From positions 6,088,501 through 6,152,500 of the forward strand of contig JAGUCH010000002.1 in the NCBI GenBank assembly GCA_019096065.1: DNA of 64,000 nt, given 5' to 3'. Source of the stretch: Paracyclopina nana. Its lineage: Eukaryota; Arthropoda; Copepoda; Cyclopoida; Cyclopettidae. Below, in pieces: positions 6,694 through 31,300 of the stretch (its first letter is position 1; each line of letters begins with the position of its first letter). Below the pieces are notes generated by a model that ran no database searches, was not told the DNA's origin, and saw nothing but the letters and a program-made list of their open reading frames with translations. The position numbers and the translations under genes are program-made.

Positions 6694-8558
6694 TTATGAG
6701 GACAAGTCCCCAGGGTCTATCGACCCCAAGTTTCCTGGGGGAGCATGAGGTGGAAACAGAGAGTGTTGCTGCACATTTTGCTGATACATTTGCTGCTCAA
6801 CAGCCTCAGCCTCGCGTTTCTTTTTTTGCCTGCGATTCTGAAACCAAACCTTGATCTGATGTTCAGGTATGTTGGTGAGCTGGGACAACTTGCGCTTGCG
6901 CTCACCATCGATGTACTCATTTGCACGGAAAAAGTTCTCCAGCTGTTGAATCTGGTCTGATGTGTACACCGATCGAGGCTTTCGAAGCCCCGATCCATCC
7001 CCTGTCACGCTGCCACCTGGACTCCCTATGCTCGACCCAGAAAATCCCGGCTGAGCTGCCATACCGCTCGACGTTCCTCCACCAGAACCAGAGTTCACGG
7101 AACCTGGACCATTCCCATGACTGCCCGAGGGAGTTGCCATCAGACCTGGATTGATCCCAAAGTGACGCCAGAATTCTGCCATGAAACCATTGGTAGAATG
7201 AAGAGGTTATGGTATGAATTAGTGCATGCTTATGTACCTTTAGCTGCAGAGGGGTCAATGAGGGAAGCAGCTGCCATGCTCAGAAAAGATCCTGGATTGA
7301 GATTAGGTGAGTTTGATCCTCCTCCGCCTCCCATGGCTTGCTTGTCGTTTGTGGGATTGCTAGAGTCACTGTAGCAGTTGTCGTCAAGGTCATCATCAAC
7401 GGCAGCATTCTCGTGATGCTCAGACTTCACCGGGCCGGAGCCTTTTTCTTTTTGGTCAGGATTATTCTTGAGCGAAACATCTTTCATGCTTCCGCTATCC
7501 CTACGAGGCCTCTTCCTCGATTGGGTGTTGCTACAAATTGATATCATTAATGCAAAAAAACCACACATCACCGTAACATCATAAAATTTTCCGTAAAACG
7601 GATTAAATATTGAAGTATTATAGTGCGCATTTGTAAAAGTTTTGCACAGAAAACATAAACGATTGAAAAAGCATTCACAGCAATCCCTTGCTCATTTGAT
7701 TCTTAGTAAAAACAGAGAAACGTATCAACTTGAATTTCTATTTATAGCGCTTATAGATTGATGGATCCTTATTCTCAAAGTGCTCTTTCGCATATTTTAC
7801 ACAAACACGCTTTTCATTGAACTAACCCTGAGTTTGAGGGACTTTTCGGAGGCTGAGGCGTGGTGGACCTCGACGGCTGCCCAGAGCTCTCATTTTGGCA
7901 CAGTCCTCTAACTCTGAACTTTTCTGCCACAGCCAAAAAGTTTTGGATGTTGGCCTGCTTCACTCGCACTTCGCCATTGTACATGAAGTCCAAGATGTTG
8001 AGCATATCGTCATAGGAGACATCCCACAAGACAATCACCGGGTTGGGCGCCGGATTGGCCCTCAAAAGTTTCCGGAAGAAGAAAGAGCAGGCGCTTAAGA
8101 TGAGTTTGTGCGCTTGGAGCTGACGCCCATCAATGGCCAAAGTGACATCAAAGAAGTCCTCTTCGTGCCGAAGATCTGACAATGTGGCCATGACATTGTC
8201 CTGAAACAAGAACATAGACGCTTTATCTTCAGAAGAGCTATACTGTTTATGTGACAAGTGTTTAGCCACAGATAAGTCAGAAGTTCACATTGCTTAGCTA
8301 TCACCAAAATGGAATCAAATCTAGCAATTACAACAACGACACAGCAATGATAAAGAAGATTTTCCTAGCCGAAAATTGCTTGCTAACAACAAAGCATTGT
8401 TTTTATGCGGAGAAATAATTGTTGAAGTAAATAATGTAAATCGGTAATTCTAACAGTTTCGTGCTTACCGTAAAATCGTTCCATTTTAAGCAGAACAGTT
8501 CTTCTGGATCTTTGTCAGCGGCAAATCCGCCTCCACTAAAGTTTTCGTTAGCCGCCAT
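6694..8558 (-). CDS. BTB-homeodomain transcription factor (4 exons)
   Basis: Exons: 8469-8558, 7827-8200, 7238-7530 and 6694-7175; all three junctions have GT-AG signals and keep phase, giving 412 residues. Residues about 20-130 form a lola/tramtrack-type BTB (POZ) dimerisation domain: FCLKWNDFT at the exon 1 end, then LSDLRHEEDFFDVTLA and AHKLILSACS. A Ser/Pro linker, a basic motif (SRKRPRRD) and Gly/Ser-rich sequence follow. Residues about 315-375 form a homeodomain with helix 3 IKVWFQNRRQKKKR (Trp48, Phe49, Gln50, Asn51, Arg53), then a Gln-rich tail. It should be a nuclear sequence-specific factor. BTB proteins of this group normally end in zinc fingers or helix-turn-helix domains; a homeodomain end is unusual. 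It may be one isoform of a gene with other 3' exons. Confidence 0.85.
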
Positions 8559-13518: not shown

Positions 13519-14173
13519 GCATGACAACTATAGTCTTAAGCCTGCTTTCTAACCTAAAAGAGAGTAGTGCAGGACGTCGTATTTATAGCATCACCATTAG
13601 GTTTTGTCAATAGCAAGCCCACGCTTCTCAGCAATTACTTACATCTATGAAATTGCTGGCAGTTTCCAGTCATTTAAGTTTCACAAAAATGCTTTAATGT
13701 TTGGTATCATATGGGCTAAACTTAATCAGGATTTTGTGCTTTGTCTCCGCTTTTATTGAGGATCAAATGAAATCTACGTGTACAAACAAATGAATTAACA
13801 TATTCAAAAAATTTGTAACGAGATATTACACCTTTGGATTGGACGGCAAACCACTTGCCTAATATACGTTTGTGTTTTTTTCTCATTTTTAGAAGCCTGC
13901 CGCGAACTAAGACAAGCGGGATTGGCGGTGAATTGATTTTCTCAGGAAGGCGCTAAAACCCATCTCATACGCAAATCCTACGCGACGCCCGTGCGTATTT
14001 TTCTCAATTAAGCGATGAACGAATGCAGTTGGCATATTTTCAAGTCATGAAAGCTTTAATGCAAAAGCGCACAATAACACCGACAAACCAATATGCTGCG
14101 TGCAACAAAAATAAGTGGATCGATTCAGCGTCAAGAGTATATTGGTATATGCATAAAACAATTAATCATCTCA
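13519..14173. other. Intergenic, actin upstream / zinc-finger gene 3' end
   Basis: AT-rich sequence upstream of the actin promoter that also holds the 3' UTR of the most distal zinc-finger terminal exon. A second TATA-like run (TATTTATAG, about 13580) is present but its use is unknown. No coding sequence was recognised. Confidence 0.4.
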
Positions 14174-14397
14174 TTATCGTTTGATTCGCCCCTTGGCTCT
14201 TTCTGCCCACGCCTCGGGATGATGAATCCTCTGATGCTTCTGGAGCGACTTTTTGTCCGTGTACTGGTTTCCACAGAGCGAACAAGTCTCCTTGATTTTC
14301 AAGTGCACCACCTTGACATGCCTCTTGAGCACAATGAGATGCTTGAAACTGTCTCCGCAAGTGGAGCACTTGTACGGCCTCTCGCCCATGTGGTCGA
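14174..14397 (-). CDS. Alternative terminal exon 6 of the gag/zinc-finger gene
   Basis: Acceptor TTTTCTAG; begins VDHMGERPY in phase. It is the most divergent copy: two fingers (CSTCGDSF...HVKVVH and CSLCGNQY...HQRIHH) and a basic tail ending KGRIKR. Stop at 14174. Confidence 0.8.
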
Positions 14398-17300
14398 CTA
14401 GAAAATATGGTGAATAATTAGTGCTTGGCTGTCTGCAGCCTCTTGTGGCCCTCATGAATGGTTCGCACGTGTCTTTTGACGCCATGACTGTCGGAGAACA
14501 CATTGCCACAAATGTGGCATCGGTAAGTGACTCCCATGTGCACTTTCTTTTCATGTCTCACCATCGAGTCTCTGTTCCTGAAGGGCAGCCCGCAGGATTT
14601 GCACTTGAACGGTGACTCGCCCATATGTTTGACTGCAAATTAGTACAGAGAGTCAAATTCGGTCCAAACTTCCGTGGCTGGACCCTTGACTCCCTCTGTC
14701 TCCGTGTCAGTCCCGACGAAAGCACCACATATTATTCAAATAGAGAGCAGCAGCAACAGAGGAGGAGGAGGAGAAAAGGGTCCAGATAGAGTGGCAGTAG
14801 TTTCAAGAGTTAAGCAAGCGTTAAATAGAAGTGAAAGAACTGGACTGGACATGCTTGCCTTTTTGTCGTACAAGTGGAATTATGTATTTCTTTATGCTGA
14901 ATGGAGGCCATGACACACATTAGGGGTTTTCACTTTTTTCAGCGGGTTTCTTTTTTTTCGACTGAGACTTCTTTTCATGGCCAAGGTGAATGGTATTCAC
15001 GTGTCTTTTGACAGTTTTGCTGCTCGAGTACATGTTGCCACAGATGTAACATCGGTAAGTGACGCCCTCGTGGACTTTCTTTTCGTGCTCCACCATGGAG
15101 TCTCTATTTTTGAAGGCCTGTCCACAGGATTTGCATTTGAACGGCGACTCGCCCATGTGTTTGACTGCAAATTAGTATAGTAGAGAGTCAAATTCGTTCA
15201 TAGTTGAGATGAACTCATCATGACTCCCGTGATCTCTGACTGTCAGTCCAAAATCACCCCAATAATAGCAGAAAAGGAACAGAGGAGAAAAGCAGAACAT
15301 TTGAAAGAGCTGGACTGATCATGCTTGCTACCAAAGAGTGCACACCAGCGCCACTCATTAGTCATCTTTAGAGGGTTTTTTCTTCTTGTAGTTCTGAGGC
15401 TTCTTATGGTGGCCCAAGTGAATGGTGCGAACGTGGTACGTGACTGACCAGGCGCTCGAATAATTGTTTCCGCAGATGTAGCACTTGTAAGTGACTCCCA
15501 TATGCACCTTCTTCTCGTGCCTCACCATGGTCTCTCTGTTGTTGAATTTCTCGCCGCAGGTTTTGCACTTGAATGGCGACTCACCCATGTGTTTGACTGC
15601 AAATGAGGAGATGAAGTTTGTAATCTTTGTTGGCCTTAAAAGCAACAAAAGATCCTAGCCTCTCTAACAGATAACAACAGCGAGCGTCTCAAGCCTTCTT
15701 CTTTTGCAGCCTCTTGCAGCCTTCGTGGATGTTCCGTATGTGTCTTCGCAGGCAGCGGTCGTCAGAGTACATGTTTCCACAAATGTAGCATCGATAGGTG
15801 ACTCCCATGTGCACTTTCTTCTCGTGCCTCACCATCGAGTCTCTGTTTCTGAAGGGGGCCCCGCAGGTTCTGCACCTGAACGGCATCTCGTCCATGTGTT
15901 TGACTGCAAATTAGTATAGCAAAGTCTCAGCCCTTGTTGTTCGATCACACAAAACAAAATTAAAGGGAGGGATAATATAGGGAAATGAATGATAAAGTAG
16001 AGAGTAGATTAACAACAGCTAATGGCTCTTGCTAGTTGTTTTCTTTGGCCTTTTCACACCCTCGTGAACTTGGCGGACATGTCTTCTCACGTGATTCCTG
16101 TCGCTAAACCAATGACCACACACGTGGCATTGGTACTTGATGCCCATATGATCAATGCGTTCATGCCTTCGCCGAGTGAACATCGTCCCAAAGGCGAGGC
16201 TACAGTGGCTGCACTTGAAAGGCTTCTCACCCATGTGCTTGACTGCAACAAAGGCTGAGATGGTCAAGACCCAGAGCTGGACCCATGACTCTTTCAAATC
16301 TTCTCTCCTCTTCAGATACATTTCAAGTCTTCGATTAGGCACTCGCATTTTCCGCTCATCTCATTACACAGGCGTTTTTGAAGGTTTAAAAGTAGAAAGA
16401 AATAGTTGTGTGAGAGTGAAGGGTCCAGCTCTTTCGAAAATTAAATAGAAAAGGAAGCATAACTCAAGGGGGAAAGGATGGAAAAAAGAAAATCAAGTTG
16501 CAAACAAAAAGAGATCATACTCAAGAAGAATTAGTATCAATCAGACAGATTTTTAAAATTGACCACTTGCATGATCTCTGTTTGCAGAGCAACAACCGCG
16601 GAGCCAAAATTAGAGAAACCCAGCACAGTTTTAGCTATGGTTGGATGAATTACCTCTGACATGCCTCTCCATGACATTCTTGCGATAGAAGTGAGCATCA
16701 CAGAGGTTGCAGGTAAACCTTCGCTTCTTCTCGTGGGTCCGCTCGATATGCTCCTTGAGATTATGGTTGAGCGTTGTCTTGTAGCCGCAAATATGGCACA
16801 CTTTAAGGTCACTTTCTTTCGGATGGCAGTTGCGCACATGCTCCTGCAAGCCTTTCTGCAATGCATGAGCATAATCACATTGGTCGCACTTCCACGGTTT
16901 CTTCGTCTCATGCTTGTACATGATGTGCTGTTGGACATGCTTGTAGTACTGCAAGAGAAAAAAGTAATTGAGTACCATGGTTATTGCTTTGCTCGATGTT
17001 TCCATATACCTCTCCGCAATGTGGACACAGTCCACCCTCTTTTTTACCGATTTTGGGAAGCTCATCGGACTCTGAAGGCATTGGCAATTCAATTTTGACT
17101 CTTTTCCTGTATACCCCCTTTCTTTTCTGTTTGGCACTGCTCAATGGTACGGCCTTCTCGTCATCGCTCGCGTCAGACAGCTCCTCCAATGTTTCCATCG
17201 GGTTGTACTCCACGTGGGTGGCCACGTGCACATAATACTCAGGATCATTCATGAACACCTGATCGCAGTGGTCACAGAAAAACGGCTCCTGTGGGTGAAA

Positions 17301-20300
17301 GGTCCTCATGTGGACTCTCATGGCAGCCTTGTCCACGCCCACATCGTACCCGCAAATGCGACACTTCTTGGCAATATCGACCTCTGGCATTTGCCCATGT
17401 ATCATTTGCTGGTGGATTCTCAACTCGTCAAACCTCATAAATTGAACTTGGCACATGCGACATCCGTGTTGAGTGTCAATGCTTACATTGTGCTCGGACT
17501 CAAATTCAAGGCCAGAAGTGTCGAGGCCATAAATCTTGGCTACCAGCATGTCAATCTCATTGATTTTGGCACGGTTGCGAATCTTAATTTCTGTAGGGCT
17601 TTTCAGCTGATTCTTCACATAGTGCGTGAGGCTCACCAACGTGGGGAAATTACCTCCCACAGCATTGCCGACAAGTAGAACGTTGCTCCAGGCATAAAAC
17701 TGTCTTTTATGTCCACCATGATCTTCATCCCGGAGGGCAGGCAAGTTTCTTAGCATCTCTTCCAGCACAGCCATTTGACCACCAGTTGTTAGCCTCGATA
17801 CGGGAATCTCCTCGTGCTTGATGTTCGTGCCTATATCATCAAAATTTAGGTCTCCCGTGTCAATGCTGTAAATGGTAAACATAAGCTTGTCCAAAGCCCC
17901 TATAGAGCTTGGATCCTTATTCAGCTTAGCCAAGGCCCTGGATTTCCAGTGGCTGATGGATTCCCTCATGGAGCCAATGTTGTCATAGAAAGCCCCATTG
18001 CCTTGAGCAATTCGGAAGACTTTCCTCCAACCGTTCAACTGATCAGTTTCACTTTCACTGAAAATGAGGCCGTGATGGCGAATCATGGCCTTGGCAATGA
18101 CCAATTTAATGGCTTCTGGAACGGACATGGAAGCTGCTGTCTCTGATTTTGAATTATTTTGAGGTGGGATCCAGGATTGGTCACAAGAGTCCTCCATAAC
18201 TTCTTCCTTGATGCTATTAGGATCAAAAATCTGCAAAAGATGCTCTTCCCAGGGTTCAAGATCTATGCCGTCATTAAGGCTTCTTTTCGCTTGTTCCCGC
18301 CATTCTCGCACCATTTTCATGAGCTTTGAATGGTTCTCGACTTTGACGCCTTCTTCGATCGCAACATTCAAGGTTTTTTGCCATACAGCAATCCTATATG
18401 AAAATCCCCCATAAAATCTAGCAATCACAATTACTTGAAGCTGATAATATACCTGTCGTTATCCCATCTGTTACGTTTGCTGGTAGCTACAATATCCTTA
18501 TGGTCATTCAAAGTATCCAATATAGCCATTCGGGCTTTGACTGAAATATCCGCTGTCAGCTTGTGCCACAAGTTGTCATCCTCAAACACATCATCGCCAT
18601 CATCCTCAGATGGGTCTTCATTGGCCTCCAAACCAAAAAATTCAAGTAGTATCTTTTCACAGGCTATGAGGGGAATGTTGCTTATGATTCTTTGCTGGAC
18701 CTTCAGCCTCCAAGTCAAAAACGTCATGAAGAGCTTAGATGGGCTATCACAGTTGATACCGAAGGCCTGCGCTATTTTCAGGGCTAAAGTCCAGAAGAGA
18801 GCCTTGTCAACCTGCATGAGATGCTTGAACTCCATTAGGTCCGTGATTATTGACACCTGCTGTTCTTCAGATACGTCGAGGATGTCATCCTGAACAGACT
18901 CGCTAAAATCAAAATCGGATGCCTTCTTCACGATGGCCAAATCAAGAATTGTGGCTTCAAATTGAGTTAAGTAGTCGTTGTTGGTGATTCTTTTATGCCA
19001 AGCCTCAAATATCCAGGCAAAAAAAGCTCTTTGCAGCAGTTGTGGTCGAGGGCAAATGGCGTCTTCTGTTGCCTCCAAGTTTTCCACCCAAAAGGCTGCA
19101 ATGTCCCGAAAGTTAGAGCCAAAGACAAGGTCATGCTTGGACGCGACTGAGTTGGCCAGATGATTTTTGGCTGACATTGGAACAAAAATTTGCAAAATCT
19201 TGTGATCGAAGGCCGAAGTGTCTTCAATTAGAGAAAGAAGATCAGCGTCAACAGAATCTCCAAAATCTATGCCAAGATTCTCCACAAGGCTTGATTCATT
19301 TGCGTCCAATGATATGGAGAACTCTTGCTTTTTCAATACCTTCAATTTCCATCTTTTGGCCATTTTGAACAAAGACAAAGGGTCATCCGTGATATGATTG
19401 ACTTTGCTCAATATCTCGGTAAATGTAGACATTTTCGATTTAGAATCTCCATTGAAGCTCGCTTCTTTGATCAGTGGCAGAAGTGCATGTTTATCTTGAA
19501 CAGAGAGATCGTGCTGTCCTAAAGAAATTTCTAGGATCATCCTGTCGCTAGGTCGAAGTTGATATTGTCCTTTCTTCATCTTTTCCAATAATTCTTCTTT
19601 CCACATAGTATAAATCAAAGCCATCTGGGGCCCGTTTGCATCCAATGCGTCCCAAAACCTTCGCTGTTCATGTTCGAGTCCAAAATGCAGTATTGCTTGA
19701 TTCTGAAAAATCTGATTCAGCAATGCCGTCTTGATATTCTCGGGAATTGCTGCTGCCTTTTCGAAGCCTGTTTTGAGATTTTCAATGACAGGCCCAGCCT
19801 CAGGCCAAGTCATGAATGCTCTTTTACAATTGATGGCCTCAATATTCAATCCAGATAAGACTTTTGACCAGAAGACTTTTTTGTATGGCTCCTTAGCCCT
19901 TTGGCACAGCACAGTAGGATTAATCTCAATAGCTGAAACAATTTTGGCCCTGGAAGCCTCATCAATATTGACATCCTCCACATCTTCCTCAAATTCTTCC
20001 CTTTCTATTGCGTTTGGCAACCTAAGGTCGTAGAGATCAAAAAGTAGTTTTTCAGCCTTGGTCTTAGGACTTTGGCCATCCTTGAGCATTCTCTGAACTC
20101 GATACTTCCACTGCTTGACCAGGTACTTGAGCTTTTGAGTTGTCACATTTGCAACCTTAAATTGAATTGCCACATTGGTGGCTTTTTCCCACATGTCCTT
20201 GTCTACTACGTGGTCGCTTCTTTTCAGCCTGAGAAGCTCTTTGATGATGGCAATCTTGGCTTCTGGAGAGAAATGAGTGCAACCGGGGATCTTGTTTACA

Positions 20301-21883
20301 ACCTGGGGCGGGCAGCCATTTTCCATGTTAGCGAAAGGAGCTGCCGCATTCTTGTCGATATTGTAAGCATGGTACATGAGCCTTTGAAGGGAAGTAACTG
20401 GACCTCCAAGTTTAACAGCCGTGTGGAAAGCCTTGGCTTGCCAAAACCTTATCAGCTCCTTCATCTTCTTAATGCTCAAGTTTTTCACCCCAATCCTAGC
20501 ATGAACTTCACGCCATGCGGACTCTTTTTCGTAAACAGACCCATGGTTCATACCTAAAGGTCCCCTGTGCTTGGCTAATTCGTGCAGTATTTCCAGCCTT
20601 GTTTCATGGTTGATGCAGCCAAGACCACTATCCTGGTCTTTCTCTTCTTCATCCTCGTCCATGGACTCTTCTTTAACTTCGCCAAGAATATCATCTTCCA
20701 CAGCTTCTACCATAGGCTCTTCTATATCGAATATTTGATAGATCAGCCGATCTGATTCGGTCAAGGTCTCGTCAGGGTTATCCTTTTTCTTCATCGATCT
20801 CATTTTCCAAATGCGAAAGGCACCCCTTAGAGCACTAGCTGATCCAACAGAGTTAAGCTTTGACTCGAGGGAGTTGTACAAGTTACGCCACAGCTCTTTT
20901 TTCTCCTTTTCTTGACCACGCGAGGCAACAATGTCCTTGTGGACCAACAGCTTCTTCAAGATTATCACTCTTAAGTCAGCAGGCATAGACATGGAGTTTG
21001 ACGACCTCACAGGACTTTCACGGCGAGGACGGCCTCTGCCACGTTTGGCAGGCTTTGCGTAATCCTCATCGCTTAAATCTTCCTCCTCGCTTGTCGAAGA
21101 AGACTCGTCTAAGTCGTTTTCCTCATACTCATACTCCTCTTCTTCTTCCTCTTCATTGTTGTCGAAAACTTCTTCTTGTGCAGTAGGTAAAGATGGGTAA
21201 TCTTCTAGCTGAGCAGATTCATCCTGGCCCAAGAGATCCCATATCAATTTGTCACAACTGGACATCTTAACATCAACTACATTATGTTTTGCCTGTATGG
21301 CTAAATTTTTCCAGGACCCAAAAACCTCCCTGAGATGAAGAGCACTTCGAAATGCCACGCCCACTGATTGCGCAAACACAAACACCTTTTCCCAGAGATC
21401 TGCCTTCTCTCCCTCATGTCCTGTGGGAGCCATAAGAACTGCTTTATGGTTCAGAAGCTCGATGAGTATGGCGATTTTCGCTTCCTCCGACACCCTAATG
21501 TCAGGCTTTTCAACCACGTTGACTTGCACATGCAACTTGTCATGAAGACTGGGCATGTCATCGTCATCTTCATCGTTTTCATTGATCCGGGATTCTTGCT
21601 TGATATTTTTCGCCACCTCAGTAGATTTAGCAATTTCAAGTGCTTGATTCAATGATAAGTTGTCTGGTGAGCTAAGCAGCTTTGATTGGATCTCCTTGCT
21701 CCGAATGCCAACGACGAGTCGATCTCGGACAAGCTCACTACCTTTGTCATCAAACTGACACTTGGCCGACAATTTTTGGAGACTGGCGACAAAGTCGTCA
21801 AGGCTTTCACTGGCTTCTTGCTCGCGAGAGTTGAATAAGAACCGCTCGTAAATAATGCCCCGGCCCTCGTTATACGGCGCCAT
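14174..21883 (-). CDS. Gag-derived N-terminus / tandem-module / C2H2 zinc-finger protein with six alternative terminal exons
   Basis: Common exons: 18453-21883, 17010-18393 and 16654-16948, then one of six terminal exons; about 1,780 residues. Residues 1-95 match the capsid C-terminal part of Ty3/gypsy Gag (YERFLFNSREQ; LDDFVASLQKLSAKCQF; ELVRDRLVVGI; NLSLNQALEIAKSTE). About 12 degenerate modules of 75-100 residues follow, each with a pattern like EAKIAILIELLNHK...LWEKV...W+K, possibly helical and MADF/SANT-like but not assigned. Acidic stretches and a basic AT-hook-like run (KRGRGRPRRE) lie between the first modules. Exons 2-3 add about seven C2H2 fingers, one split by an intron (CPHCGE|YYKHVQQH). 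It is probably a nuclear DNA-binding regulator. The ATG at 21883 follows a possible acceptor (CAATTCAG), so an upstream exon may exist. Confidence 0.85.
14418..14632 (-). CDS. Alternative terminal exon 5 of the gag/zinc-finger gene
   Basis: Acceptor TTTGCAG; begins VKHMGESPF in phase. Two fingers (CKSCGLPF...HEKKVH and CHICGNVF...HVRTIH), a short basic tail and stop at 14418. About 290 bp of non-coding sequence separates it from exon 4. Confidence 0.8.
14920..15164 (-). CDS. Alternative terminal exon 4 of the gag/zinc-finger gene
   Basis: Acceptor TTTGCAG; begins VKHMGESPF in phase. Two fingers (CKSCGQAF...HEKKVH and CYICGNMY...HVNTIH), a Lys-rich tail and stop at 14920. Confidence 0.8.
15358..15596 (-). 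CDS. Alternative terminal exon 3 of the gag/zinc-finger gene
   Basis: Acceptor ATTTGCAG; begins VKHMGESPF in phase. Two fingers (CKTCGEKF...HEKKVH and CYICGNNY...HVRTIH), tail NYKKKKPSKDD and stop at 15358. Confidence 0.8.
15689..15903 (-). CDS. Alternative terminal exon 2 of the gag/zinc-finger gene
   Basis: Acceptor TTTGCAG; begins VKHMDEMPF in phase with the common donor. Two fingers (CRTCGAPF...HEKKVH and CYICGNMY...HIRNIH), a Lys-rich tail and stop at 15689. Confidence 0.8.
16019..16242 (-). CDS. Alternative terminal exon 1 of the gag/zinc-finger gene
   Basis: Follows acceptor TTTGTTGCAG and joins the common donor at 16654 in phase (G|TC gives Val-Lys-His-Met-Gly-Glu). Two C2H2 fingers (CSHCSLAF...HERIDH and CHVCGHWF...HVRQVH), a basic tail and its own stop at 16019. 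Confidence 0.8.
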
Positions 21884-25382: not shown

Positions 25383-28300
25383 TTAGAGCCCAATGGTATA
25401 TGATCTCCCGTTAGGATTGTGAATAGGAACAGAGACTGGCTTTGTTATACACCATTCGTACCACACTTGCTTGGCATTATTGAGCCTCCAAAAATGCAAC
25501 TCAACTTCAGCACCCTTGCTTAGCTTAATGGGAGCCCTCAGGGGAATGAATATTGCAAACCAACTAAACATTCCTGAAAAATGAGATTGTAAAAGGCTTT
25601 CGAAGAAATAGCACTAAAAGCAAGTAATTTACCAGGCGAATGAGTGGAAGGGTTAATGCTTATCATAACATCCTTGTACAAAGTGCACTCAAAGTAGCCT
25701 CCAAATCCGTGGAGTTCGCTGTCCATATTGATTTTGAAGGTTTTTACCTCATATCTAGAACATTGGGAGAAACTAATGAAAAGTAATTGCTAGCATGTTA
25801 TCAACGAATTCTCATACCTAGTTGTATCAATGGCTCCTTTGTAAGGATGCTCGAATGTAAAGAGAGGTTGAGGCTCGGCTAATTCTGTTCTGTTTTGCAA
25901 ATGCACCACATATGGAGTCTCAAAATGGCAGTTGGGATTTTTCTCTGGATCAGCCGATCCCCTCACTTCCTGGTATAGCTTTGGAGACTGCAGTGGTCCC
26001 ACAAAAGAGGTGTAAGAGCTTGGTATGCTGATAGCATCTTCTTTGAACAAATGTTGCGCATCATAAAGGCACTCCGGACTAAGCTCATTGTCACCGAAGG
26101 AGCCAAGAAGCTCAGAAACCACAATATCAGCTCTAGTTCCGTTTGATTTCCATTCTCTCATGTCAGAAAAGACAACTTCGACTTTGTCCCCCCATTCTTC
26201 ATCTTTCCTGGTCAAGAGGGTGACCACTGCATTAGTGTTCTTTTCGACAGCAATCACTTTGATTTTTCTTCCGCTCAATTCGGCAGCCTAAGAGATACAA
26301 AAGTCAATCGTAAGTAATTTAAAGTAGGCTTTCCACATGCAGGATTTGTACTTGAGGTGATTATAATAAACTTTATATGATGGAAAGTAATTTTCGCATG
26401 TATAATTCAGTTTACCAATTCGTCTCAGTTCATATAACTACACATATATAAAGGCTCTGACGTTTTACTTTATCAAGTGACACACATTATAAAGTATTTT
26501 ATAAGGTGTGTTGCTACTCTGTTTGACCAGATATTGTCCAAGAAGTAAATCCCATTGCAGAAAAAAGGAGAAAAAATGCCTTGCATGGGGATTGAACCCT
26601 GATCATCTAGATTAGGAATCCGACGCTCTACTGACTGAGCTACCAATACAGATAGAAAAAATTGTTGTTAGAATCCCTTTTTATTCTTCTTCTAAGCTGA
26701 GCTAAGTTCAGCAGAGGAGTAGAGTCTCTATCAGAGATACCAGACAAAACTTGATCTAACACATCTTTTAGCTTCAAAAAGTGCCAAATTCAAAATGCAC
26801 ACTTTTTAAGTGATTCATTAACACTTTCAACTACTCTTGCACTAGTGAAGGCCTCTCGACCCAAGCCCTCAAAGTAATGGATCAAATGCTAAGTCAAGAT
26901 TGCCTAGTCTGGTAACTTCATTAACATTTGAAAATTACTTTCCATCATATAAAATCGTATATATATGTAAACAAATTACAAAACATGCTGACAAAATATC
27001 TGAGCTCATTTTGTAAGTAAAAATCTTGTAGCATTACTTGGCTCTCGCAAGCTCGAGCCCGCAAAGTTGCCACTCGATTTTTACTTTACAAAATTTGCTC
27101 AGCTGTTTTATTAGCTTGTTTTATAAATTGTTTACATATATAAATAGATATAATTACGCTAAGGGAAGAGAATTATTATTGATTAAGACGCGCCTCAACA
27201 ATCCCTTGAGCAGTAGCACAGAAACTGTTGCAGGACAAGCTCCTGGAGGATGAGAGGACTCGAATCCAGGATCGAGAACGATGAGAAGCTTCAACCGATA
27301 ACCTTACTACAACCTTATTGATCAAGGCTGCAAATAAAGACAAGTTATACACGAATTCAAAATGGATACTTAGAATTGATAAAGATGATTTTGACAAGTA
27401 CAAAGTAGTGTATTATTCGGTTTTCGGTAAGCAAGTGAAGTACAATATTCTCAGCGTAATACAAGAAAAGTTGGGTGCTCAGTGCTGCGCAGCGAGGATC
27501 GAAGGAAGAGGTCGAGCCGTAACATTTCTCCCCCCAACGACCTCCATTCGGCCTCCGAGGTCGTTCCCAGATCAGCGAATGATACATTGAGTATCGTTGC
27601 GAGCGAGGGCGGTAAGATACAGCCTGCCATCGTCCAACACGTCCTCGAGGGCAGAGGTCTTGCGCACTACGACCTCGAACCGTCCACTCTCATTCTTTCT
27701 CCAAGACCAATCCAATCCCGTCAGCATGCCCATCGCATAATAATTAAGAGGGGCGCAGAGCACAAAATCGTTGAAAAGCGTGAGGTAAGAAAACCTGAGG
27801 TGATCCGAGGCCGTGTGGCCGTTGCCGTCGCACGTGGAGCACCTTTCGAGCATCAAGGGGCAGACAGCAATAACGTGCTCAGTGGATCCACAAGGAGGGT
27901 AGATGTACCTTCGCTTGGCCTTCATACAGGGCAGGACGGGCTCAGGAGGAGGTACTGGCTCCAAAGGCAGCACAGTGGCCTCTACGCCGACGTCGAGCAT
28001 CTCCTCGCTCCCATCATCACCCTTTTCTTCCTGCGGTTGATCATTGGCAATGGTGATCTGGAGCGTACGCATCAGCAGTCTCGCATCTCCCCCCGTTTCG
28101 GGGAGAGTCTTCTTTTCTTGGCTAGGAGCGTCAGCCTCTACTCCTTCTTCATGTTCAAGGGAGTCATCTCCCGCGCCAGCGGGGTCCAAAAAGTGGGACG
28201 AGGAGCCACACAAATGGCAGTGCTCCGGGAAGGCTGCGCCCAATGCCAGAGCACTATTGAGCAGGTCATCGAAATCAACCTTATGATAGGGGACGCCCTC

Positions 28301-31300
28301 AAAATAAGCATCCAGGTCTGCCCTGAGGGCTGGAGAGGCTGCGAACGGATCAGGTTTGTACAGATTACAAATGAAGGAGGCCCTGACAACTTTAGGGTTG
28401 TTAACCGTCTCGGTTCCTTCTCGGTAGAGCATGTAGGCTACTCCAGGCTTGTCGTTATCTTCGTCCATAAACTCCTTGAATCCAAATGGCCTCGTATTGG
28501 CCTCGGTTTTAGACTGGAAATCTGCTGCGCTGTGCCGACCTTTCAGGAGGGCCAAAATGTAAGCCACATACCTGTTGGCGTCGGCTTGCTCCTCACAATT
28601 GAATATGTCCATCAATCTTGCCGCCAGCCTGGTGATGAGGACCATTGGGAGCGCCACCGTGTGGAAGACATAATAAATAAGCCCTCCATGCCACTTATTC
28701 ATGGATTTGGAGAAATCAGCTCTTGGCAAGCTGATCTCCAAGACGTCATTGTCGATCTTCACGTCTGGTCGATCCTGAACATCTTGTCGGGGAGCCTTTC
28801 GCCGGTCGAACTTGTTTTCCTTCTCGTCCTCGATGGATTTCCCATGGAAGACTCTGATCGTGCAGGGCAACTTCAGCCTCTGGGAAGCATAAGCTTGACC
28901 ATTCTTCACCATGTGTGGCTGCAGCCCCGGCTGCGGGTACATGAAGGCAACCAAGTTGCTGGCCTCGCAGGCGCTGGTGACAGTGACATGTATCAGATGG
29001 AGTCTTCTGACATGATCACCAACGTTCCATTGGATCTTGTAAATACGAGGATCGGCCAGAATGTCGGCAATGCATTGAGGGACATGCATGCCTAACACGG
29101 GTTCGCCTATGCCCCCAAAATTGATGGTGAAGACCACAGAGACCCCATTTGGGGCCATAATAGTAAGAGTGGTGAAGGCCTCTTTGGGCACTCTTACCTG
29201 CCCAAACTTGGCTGACCGATAGGCGGCAGTTGTCCAGGACGTGGTGTGGAAGGTCAAGACATTCCTCTTGCGGATGGAGTGGAAAAACTCGTCGGCTTCA
29301 AGACTCTTTCTCACCATCGGCCAGTCACTTTTGAGGTCAACGTTGACCATGTTGCGCTGCCCATCGACATATCGAAGATCCCAAGGTGCCTGGAGGGCTT
29401 TGGCATCCTTTCGTGCCATGTAAAGAGGATACCACTCCTGATAAAGATGGTCGGGTCTGAAATGCGGCAGTTCTTCTCCAGGGAAGAGACGAGGGGGCAG
29501 CTTCGATGAGCACCACAATCTAGGGCAGGGGCCGACCTCGTTTCGAGCGGCTCCTTCTAAAAAGGGCGTGACAGACTCGCAAAGGGTGGGGACATACTTT
29601 ACAGGTATTGGGACTGGACTGGGCTTGATTTGGACGGGGACGGCCCCTCCAAAGGGTGCCAGAGTGAGCTCGAACGACCTAGTGGTCCAGTCATTTCGAC
29701 TTACCATCGGAGCAGTCCCAAAGGCCATGAGTTCTAGGTCTTGAAGCCACGATCTTGCCTTATAGTTTTCCATCGCCGGAAAGCAGGCCATCAATTGAGA
29801 GATGTCTTGCCAGGAGTCATCATCATCAGCTTCTGCTTGTTGACTCACAGCCTGGACCCTGACGGCGGCCAAAGCCTTGAACAGCTCGGTGTACTTGCTG
29901 AGCGAGAGCTTGGCGGAGTCCTTGGTGGTGCAATTGGGCAGTCTCAAGGATATCCCAGTCCTGGAGAAATCAGGGGCGGTGGCAGACATGGCTAGGATTT
30001 CAGGGTGGTGCGCGGTCATGATCTCGAACACAGTCATGTTTCCTGCGGCAATACAGGCCAGTCTCATGGCATCGTTGGTGAGCGTCAACATCCTGGAGCT
30101 CCTCCTCTGACTCTCATTTCGAGGATCAGTCGCCCTTCTTGGTCCAAAATTGAGCTCGTCACCCAGAATTGCAATCCTGGGGTCCATGTAGAGAAGTTGT
30201 CTCATTGGCTCAGAGTACGTTCTGAAGTGGCGATAGAAAAGTACTCGATCAAAGTGCCACTTGTTCTTGAAACGTGAGATGACATCAGCTAGCTCTTCTT
30301 CGAACGCGTTTTCGGGATAGTCACTGATTCGAATTTCCTCCTCTGCAGTAGGCCTGGGAAGCTTGGAGAAGTGAGCCCAAGTTGTTGGAGTAGTGTTGAA
30401 CTTGGGCAAGTATTTCTCCGAGGTCCTCCTTATCGGGGCAGGAATTCGAGCGTCAAAGTTGGGCGCTTCAGTGGAGTGGTTGGAGAGTTCTTTCGGCACT
30501 TTCCCTTCTTCAGCTGCAGCTGCGGCCACTCCAGGATCTTCTCGGATAGCATCGACGCTTCTTTGCCTCTCGACTAGGACCGCCCCAGCACTGTTGGCTG
30601 CGTGCTTGGCTTTTCTTTTTTCTCTGAGGGCAGAGAGGGTCGCCACCCTCTTTTGGACTTCCTCCCACTCGGCCTCTACAGACGAATAATCTTCGGCTCG
30701 TCCCACGCTTCTCTCCAAATCCTTTCGGCGTTCATGCTCCCGGCGATAGTCTTTCGAATTTCTCGAGGAACTACGGCGGCGATCGGGGGATTCACGAGCT
30801 TCCTGCACAACGACGTTCCTACGGGGAGAATTTCGTTTAGGTGGTGACTTGGATCTCGAGCGCGTTTCGCGACTGCGTCGGTCAGCGTTTCGCTGATAGG
30901 AGCCTCGGGAGTCTCTTCTTTTCCTAGAATCGGGTCTTTCAGGTGAACGATACCTTTTTTGGCGATGTGCTCTTCCAGAGCTCGGGTGCGAACCCTCCGA
31001 GTTTCTCGGGGGTGAGGTCCACTCCTCTTCTGGGCGGTGGTGCAATTCCAGCTCGGGGGAATCTTCTCGGCGCGATCTAGACATGATTTTCTTATTCACT
31101 TTAATTATAGGTGGAAGCGGAAGGTTGAATGTTTACAAAACCGGCTGAGCTGCGTGGTGTAACGTCAGCTGTCCTTCCGTTTAGGTTTTGTGGAGCAGCG
31201 GAAATAGAACTTTTGTTCCGCTGCTAATAGGTTGCGAGTTGTGATTTATTTATTTGCGTTGTTTTTGTTCTTGGCCTCGGATTTGTACGCCAATTTTATT

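Follow-up and report, generated by a model that had tools for sequence, protein, structure and literature searches.

How can one gene choose among several DNA-binding ends? The question is raised by a locus of the copepod Paracyclopina nana in a stretch of 64,000 nucleotides (assembly GCA_019096065.1, contig JAGUCH010000002.1, positions 6,088,501 to 6,152,500; hereafter the window, whose numbering is used throughout), where six consecutive exons encoding C2H2 zinc fingers lie downstream of one constant exon of a gene on the minus strand, the strand of all array and gene features given below. We propose, with good confidence, that this is a single host gene in which one constant N-terminal part is combined with one of six alternative ends.

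The array is compact (2.5 kb). Copies 1 to 6 span positions 16019–16242, 15689–15903, 15358–15596, 14920–15164, 14418–14632 and 14174–14397, the higher number of each pair marking an AG acceptor and the lower one the copy's own stop. All six acceptors are in phase with the single donor at 16654, as a preliminary description of the sequence had stated. Also borne out were the exon lengths of 2+3n (computed for copies 2 to 6; copy 1 is 224 nt long by its coordinates) and, on translation of each copy, the V(K/D)HM(G/D)E start followed by two C2H2 fingers and a stop. A motif RHEKKVH, said to be common to five copies, occurs unaltered only in copies 2, 3 and 5, its counterparts being EHEKKVH in copy 4, RHERIDH in copy 1 and RHVKVVH in copy 6. 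From each stop to the next exon the spacers measure 115, 92, 193, 287 and 20 nt. When a profile built from the six copies was run against the window in six frames, the copies scored 104.8–134.3 bits and the next best places were the gene's own constant fingers (24.8 and 19.3 bits); no decayed further copies were found in these 64 kb.

The last constant finger has the form C-x2-C-x12-H-x4-H, and its final histidine, the fourth zinc ligand, is encoded by the alternative exon: each copy opens with V-x-H, and the histidine falls in the same register after ...MERHVR/V in all of them. Every copy thus makes sense after donor 16654, because its V-x-H histidine completes the last constant finger.

Upstream of the array, the constant part consists of three exons. 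Exon A (18453–21883), defined by its open frame and splice site, encodes the protein head and a series of LW..W repeats of about 75 amino acids that are Myb/SANT-like, a component missing from the preliminary description; exon B (17010–18393) encodes the last repeats and the first C2H2 fingers; the constant exon (16654–16948) encodes further C2H2 fingers and ends in the phase-1 donor GAG/GTAATT. The introns separating them are 59 nt (A/B) and 61 nt (B/constant), the intron from the constant exon to copy 1 is 411 nt, and the predicted protein has 1,774–1,784 amino acids. Eight of the 15 proteins returned by an ortholog search were judged to be orthologs (P0001–P0007 and P0010; their listed sources are ena, lgn or ncbi, never nr or UniRef), the other seven being general finger proteins. 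The exon A product is 37–47% identical to these eight relatives, its start methionine is invariant across the nine aligned proteins, and Pfam Myb_DNA-bind_5 matched the repeats in two of the nine members (best E 0.032). The intron between exon B and the constant exon is supported because relatives' gene predictions turn into unlike sequence directly past CPHCGE, while the relative P0022 carries the junction CPHCGE/SYKHV in joined form.

Further searches brought proteins in which the array junction itself could be read. A second search gave six proteins, three with copy-6-type ends (P0016–P0018) and three general ones; a third gave 31, of which 18 were read (17 and P0017). The matched part of the constant exon is 96–99% identical in P0025–P0030, and in P0001, P0025, P0026 and P0027 the sequence continues past the constant donor as HVRG, in agreement with the use of the same donor. 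P0018 has the constant exon joined at the same junction to a copy-6-type end, whereas P0022 and P0024 have it joined to copy-1-like ends (VNHMGEKPF.. and VRHMGEKPC.., respectively). P0022 looks like RNA, since the exon B/constant intron is absent from it as well. Both proteins carry the label 'merc', which we take to be the Marine Eukaryotic Reference Catalogue, presumably built from ocean metatranscriptomes; passages in the literature confirm a catalogue of that name, and the larger collection that holds it comprises metagenomes and metatranscriptomes. P0049 presents a free copy-1-like end following intron-like sequence.

The copies are old and constrained. Among copies 1–5, dS is 0.94–2.34 and dN/dS 0.11–0.26 in eight of ten pairs (the other two are saturated); between copy 6 and copies 1–5, dN/dS is 0.19–0.41 in four of five pairs (the fifth is saturated). 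The exception to this constraint is found at the DNA-contact positions of the second finger, numbered −1, 2, 3 and 6 in a C2H2 finger. In copies 1 to 6 these residues are DNHR, DRCR, SWSY, SKTR, DHGR and DKSK, and in the first finger TFTR, NDSR, NETR, NDSE, NDSR and HIVR. For copies 2–5, the second-finger contacts have pN 0.64 and pS 0.64, the first-finger contacts pN 0.21 and pS 0.74, and the positions contacting in neither finger pN 0.15 and pS 0.60; once copy 1 is included, the second-finger contacts have pN 0.60 and pS 0.53 and the non-contacts 0.22 and 0.67. The pattern suggests that the DNA target may change from end to end.

Several observations weigh against the proposal and have to be set beside this evidence. 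In the test of contact variability, p was 0.009 for the second finger (four columns) and 0.38 for the first. All proteins with joined ends come from relatives and none from this species; P0018 and P0024 could come from species that lost the intron; and each relative protein displays one end only, so that alternation within a species rests on inference. No individual orthologs of copies 1–5 were found among the relatives' proteins, the nearest being P0022 to copy 1 (34/66). Even so, the array is real, old and constrained, and in relatives the constant exon of this gene is found with either type of end attached. Anatomy, selection and the relatives' joined proteins together lend good support to what would be interchangeable ends on one N-terminus. 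That all six copies serve as alternatives in this species is very likely, though unproven.

What could select one end over the others? A candidate answer comes from the intron preceding copy 1 and was missing from the preliminary description. We compared the first 261 nt of this intron with the spacers preceding copies 1–5 (copy 1 being represented by the final 150 nt of the intron; copy 6, with its 20-nt spacer, lay outside the scan). The segment 16442–16419 has exact complements of 12, 5, 5, 13 and 11 nt in spacers 1 to 5. The sum of the best three, 36, was reached in 0 of 400 shuffles of either kind (shuffled mean 22.5; maxima 27 with shuffled spacers and 30 with a shuffled intron). On the strength of this complementarity and its controls, a candidate docking site, GAAAGAGCTGGACCCTTCACTCTC, was placed at 16412–16435, between the constant exon and the first variable exon, the position that a docking–selector system calls for. 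Its 24 nt give duplex energies of −32.1 kcal/mol with the spacer of copy 1, −28.2 with that of copy 4 and −30.6 with that of copy 5, each reached in 0 of 300 shuffles. Candidate selectors thereby appear upstream of three of the five copies scanned: at 16272–16293 for copy 1 (12 nt of exact complement within the −32.1 kcal/mol duplex), at 15303–15315 for copy 4 (13 nt of exact complement to the docking site), and at both 14833–14845 (5a; 12 Watson–Crick pairs and one G–U) and 14675–14695 (5b; the −30.6 kcal/mol duplex) for copy 5. The docking site was found by looking, and the tests corrected for the best of all positions therefore carry most weight. With this correction, a duplex energy as favourable as that of copies 4 and 5 together occurred in 0 of 120 shuffles, this pair having been picked after looking.

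Additional support may come from the relative P0025, whose constant exon equals that of P0024 by eye and whose intron read-through contains SKELDP, which is what TCGAAAGAGCTGGACCCT at 16437–16420 encodes in frame 0. Of the relatives' intron read-through tails, eight in number, six were long enough to score, and five of these six gave values equalled by 75–764 of 1000 shuffles. The 54-nt intron of P0023 has no such word and no room for an array. No docking site was found elsewhere in six comparisons, which covered the constant exon, the 3' region, exon copies 1, 4 and 6, and a site for spacers 2 and 3; local hairpins in spacers 2–5 gave z from −1.06 to 1.56.

A number of results count against pairing as the switch. 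For copies 2 and 3 no selector reached significance (−12.5 kcal/mol, 69 of 300 shuffles, and −16.8 kcal/mol, 34 of 300), and the corrected test on spacers 2–5 jointly gave only 6 of 120. The spacers are related by duplication, and the selectors of copies 4 and 5 are consequently not independent. Searched with two mismatches allowed, the 13-mer has five matches in the window, a number equalled in 10 of 100 shuffles. A shared word of at least six residues, as in P0025, arose 38 times when residues were shuffled (20,000 trials) and 10 times when the intron was shuffled (3,000 trials), but the test was picked after the match had been seen, and the place where P0025 best matches the intron without gaps is next to the site and not on it (36 of 1000).

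These same results leave room for the explanation that competes best, namely that an old inverted duplication or a mobile element produced the complementarity as a by-product, with no steering of splicing. The relatedness of the spacers and the missing complement at copies 2 and 3 favour it, as does the proposal, in the part of PMC6071210 that concerns the origin of docking and selector sites, that such patterns arise by duplication of a stem arm or a partial stem-loop. It is less easily reconciled with the genome, in which the 208-bp intron piece is matched nowhere else and the 13-mer occurs nine times in 92 Mb (two of them at the array, in opposite directions), compared with two occurrences of the reversed control. 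Nor does it readily account for SKELDP in a relative's intron or for the preservation of the element itself: the complement of copy 4 lies in a 27-nt block that is identical at 24 of 27 positions to a block preceding copy 5 (shuffled maximum 20), although the two copies differ at 56% of synonymous sites. We consider this by-product explanation a serious contender, if somewhat short of an even chance, and give intron pairing as a switch among the ends roughly even prospects on the sequence evidence. No report of intron pairing for lola or for last exons was found among the open-licence PMC papers searched.

A second alternative concerns the construction of the 3' end. The preliminary description compared the layout with that of lola and mod(mdg4), loci marked by a separate 3' untranslated region (UTR) and poly(A) site for each end. 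In the present gene neither AATAAA nor ATTAAA occurs between the copies, that is, from 16660 to the stop of copy 6 at 14174; the only such signals in 16660–13000 are ATTAAA at 14060 and 13698 and AATAAA at 13757, all 3' of copy 6, and they place a likely shared 3' end at 13693–14060. The exon of copy 6 moreover begins 20 nt past the stop of copy 5, with an acceptor region that overlaps the last part of copy 5, and copy 5 can therefore hardly own a poly(A) site. The absence of canonical signals between the copies and the 20-nt gap speak for a choice of acceptor combined with one common 3' end, which likely lies downstream of copy 6, rather than for a lola-type arrangement. Non-canonical words resembling poly(A) signals count against this conclusion: AAGAAA occurs seven times, AATACA is found at 14888 and AATAGA at 15108, and CATAAA at 14896, after copy 4, might serve separate terminal exons chosen by polyadenylation or trans-splicing. 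The logic of the product would be identical, one N-terminus with many paired C2H2 ends, as parts of PMC5127561 and PMC11426971 describe for lola. Weighing these points, we regard separate terminal exons as unlikely; the comparison with lola holds for the product and probably fails for the 3' end.

Could copies 1–5 instead be relics of duplication in an intron, with copy 6 as the only end in use? Copy 6 is certainly conserved. Its counterpart is present in five relatives' proteins (66/71 identical in P0016, 61/74 in P0017, 59/74 in P0018, 62/74 in P0023 and 54/63 in P0045), with which it groups in a tree with support 100/100 while all other ends stand apart, and P0023 has no array at all: its constant exon is followed by the intron of 54 nt (counted by hand), read through in frame, and then by a copy-6-type end. 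Among the remaining ends of the tree only copies 3 and 4 are well supported as a group; P0022, P0049 and P0031 sit on long, unsure branches. Against the relic explanation stand the low dN/dS of copies 1–5 at dS near 1 or above, their intact acceptors, the copy-1-like ends joined in relatives and the open frames, as the chance that a neutral frame this long escapes stops is about 0.10 once 0.5 substitutions per site have accumulated. We therefore find it highly improbable that only copy 6 is used.

The history of the six copies may not be uniform. When copy 5 was used as a query against the genome (150 of 1051 candidates being scored), copies 1–4 were found at 66.0–108.6 bits, the best place outside the array at 46.7 and copy 6 at 41.5. 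Copy 6 thus resembles copy 5 no more than unrelated C2H2 pairs of the genome do and may differ in origin; the tandem duplication claimed earlier fits copies 1–5 but would not necessarily extend to copy 6. Copy 6 is indeed the most diverged when compared with the other copies, as had been noted, but it is the strongly conserved one between species and probably the original end.

Serial splicing of the copies into one longer finger array, for which phase-compatible exons, a good phase-1 GT near the start of copies 1 and 3 and a phase-1 GT after the second finger in copies 1 and 4 could be invoked, is scarcely credible and was rejected, since each copy carries its own terminal stop, a phase-1 GT downstream of the second finger is missing from copies 2, 3, 5 and 6, and only about 20 nt would separate copy 5 from copy 6.

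From the proposal of one constant part with six alternative ends, the following mechanism may be put forward. A presumably nuclear protein would be composed of the Gag-like head, the Myb/SANT-like repeats, the constant C2H2 block and one of six ends, donor 16654 being spliced to any one of the six downstream acceptors. Each end would complete the last constant finger, add two fingers and stop, the remaining array downstream of the chosen copy would become 3' UTR, and all forms would end 3' of copy 6. Copy 6 would be the old default end, in front of which copies 1–5 would have arisen by tandem duplication in the intron, to be retained for the different DNA that each recognises with its second finger. 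Selection of copies 1, 4 and 5, at the least, would probably be aided by competing docking site–selector pairing, which would loop out the intervening copies.

The head deserves separate consideration. It comprises about 99 amino acids from the conserved methionine (21586–21883), which we take from their pattern to be Gag capsid-like. A trimmed alignment of eight heads has 22 invariant columns, the methionine included; in the untrimmed alignment it is likewise invariant, and P0001 and P0010 carry a few residues before it. The earlier description of a Gag-headed protein is plausible: the head is 35% identical (E 1.7e-4) to that of a gene on contig C3 (L051) and aligns, weakly but in the expected place, with the Gag domains of two open frames on contig C7 (9.3 bits with L055, i-E 0.014 in a small set; 5.5 bits with L056). 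It is also weak, since no Gag family was found for the head among 25 of 26 Pfam families listed, and a comparison with the PDB returned only DciF (E 0.53 and 0.62), which is not a Gag. The two C7 frames (near 6273600 and 6276238, minus strand; 547 and 560 amino acids) match Pfam Retrotrans_gag with 39 and 27.7 bits and continue in frame into many C2H2 fingers, so that fusions of Gag and fingers, comparable to the SCAN proteins of vertebrates, exist in this genome. L051 (minus strand, about 6730–4840) has a short Gag-like head and C2H2 exons, and no LW..W repeats were seen in the stretch read.

Other finger genes are plentiful in the genome (92 Mb in ten contigs). On the contig of the window, C2, a dense tandem cluster of C2H2 open frames at 2480000–2559999 (L043–L050) includes many with an N-terminus like NPWxVxxLxxFxFFCCPEC, which looks like a common finger module; on C5, a very large C2H2 cluster with many finger-search matches occupies about 6.8–7.6 Mb, with units of equal score about 2.8 kb apart at 7.099–7.111 Mb. 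No further array was found in the stretches read at the three best of 134 listed constant-exon matches outside the window (37–41% identity; C4, C2 and C3), which are ordinary multi-finger genes. The array gene is flanked by an NMNAT-like gene, named by eye from a cytidylyltransferase exon, and by an actin gene, likewise recognised by eye. An open frame of 1186 amino acids at 27572–31132 (minus strand) has no Pfam match up to E 1. A BTB domain exon, Tramtrack-like in appearance (7814–8284, minus strand, 89 bits), lies past the actin gene, some 6 kb from the array on its 3' side, and belongs to a separate gene; in one study, a passage of PMC11426971 states, BTB domains of the Tramtrack type were not found outside arthropods.

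In comparison with known systems, the gene resembles lola and mod(mdg4) in its common N-terminal part and many alternative C-termini, several predicted 3' coding ends being in phase with one donor; the ends of lola are, according to a part of PMC5127561, mostly of two C2H2 fingers. It differs in that the common part has a Gag-like head and Myb/SANT-like repeats instead of BTB, which, in agreement with the preliminary description, Pfam lists neither for the exons of the gene nor for its relatives, in that constant fingers precede the variable ones with the junction inside a finger, and in its probably shared 3' end. With Dscam1 exon 6, where, as stated in a passage of PMC8042237, complementary elements upstream of variable exons compete for a docking site, it would share the principle of selection; the exons here are, however, terminal ones with their own stops and not internal, candidate selectors precede three copies only, and the product is a finger protein and not a cell-surface receptor. 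In vertebrates the SCAN domain is fused to C2H2 finger proteins. Its derivation from a retrotransposon Gag is proposed in a portion of PMC11011659, which makes SCAN proteins a possible further likeness, whereas the present gene has a weak head match, an exchangeable finger end and presumably an independent origin. We tentatively suggest, rating the chances a little below even, that the gene is a non-BTB counterpart of lola of independent origin, probably of planktonic arthropods: a transcription factor headed by a domesticated Gag, with a shared 3' end and with ends picked by pairing of the Dscam type.

As the array measures only 2.5 kb, a single minigene would suffice to test the docking hypothesis, and with divergence concentrated at the contact residues of one finger, differences in DNA target between isoforms are directly testable. 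If the proposal is true, target switching by alternative ends, best known from insect BTB genes, would have re-evolved on an unrelated protein, the RNA-pairing selector of Dscam could govern terminal exons as well, and one gene could read several DNA targets.
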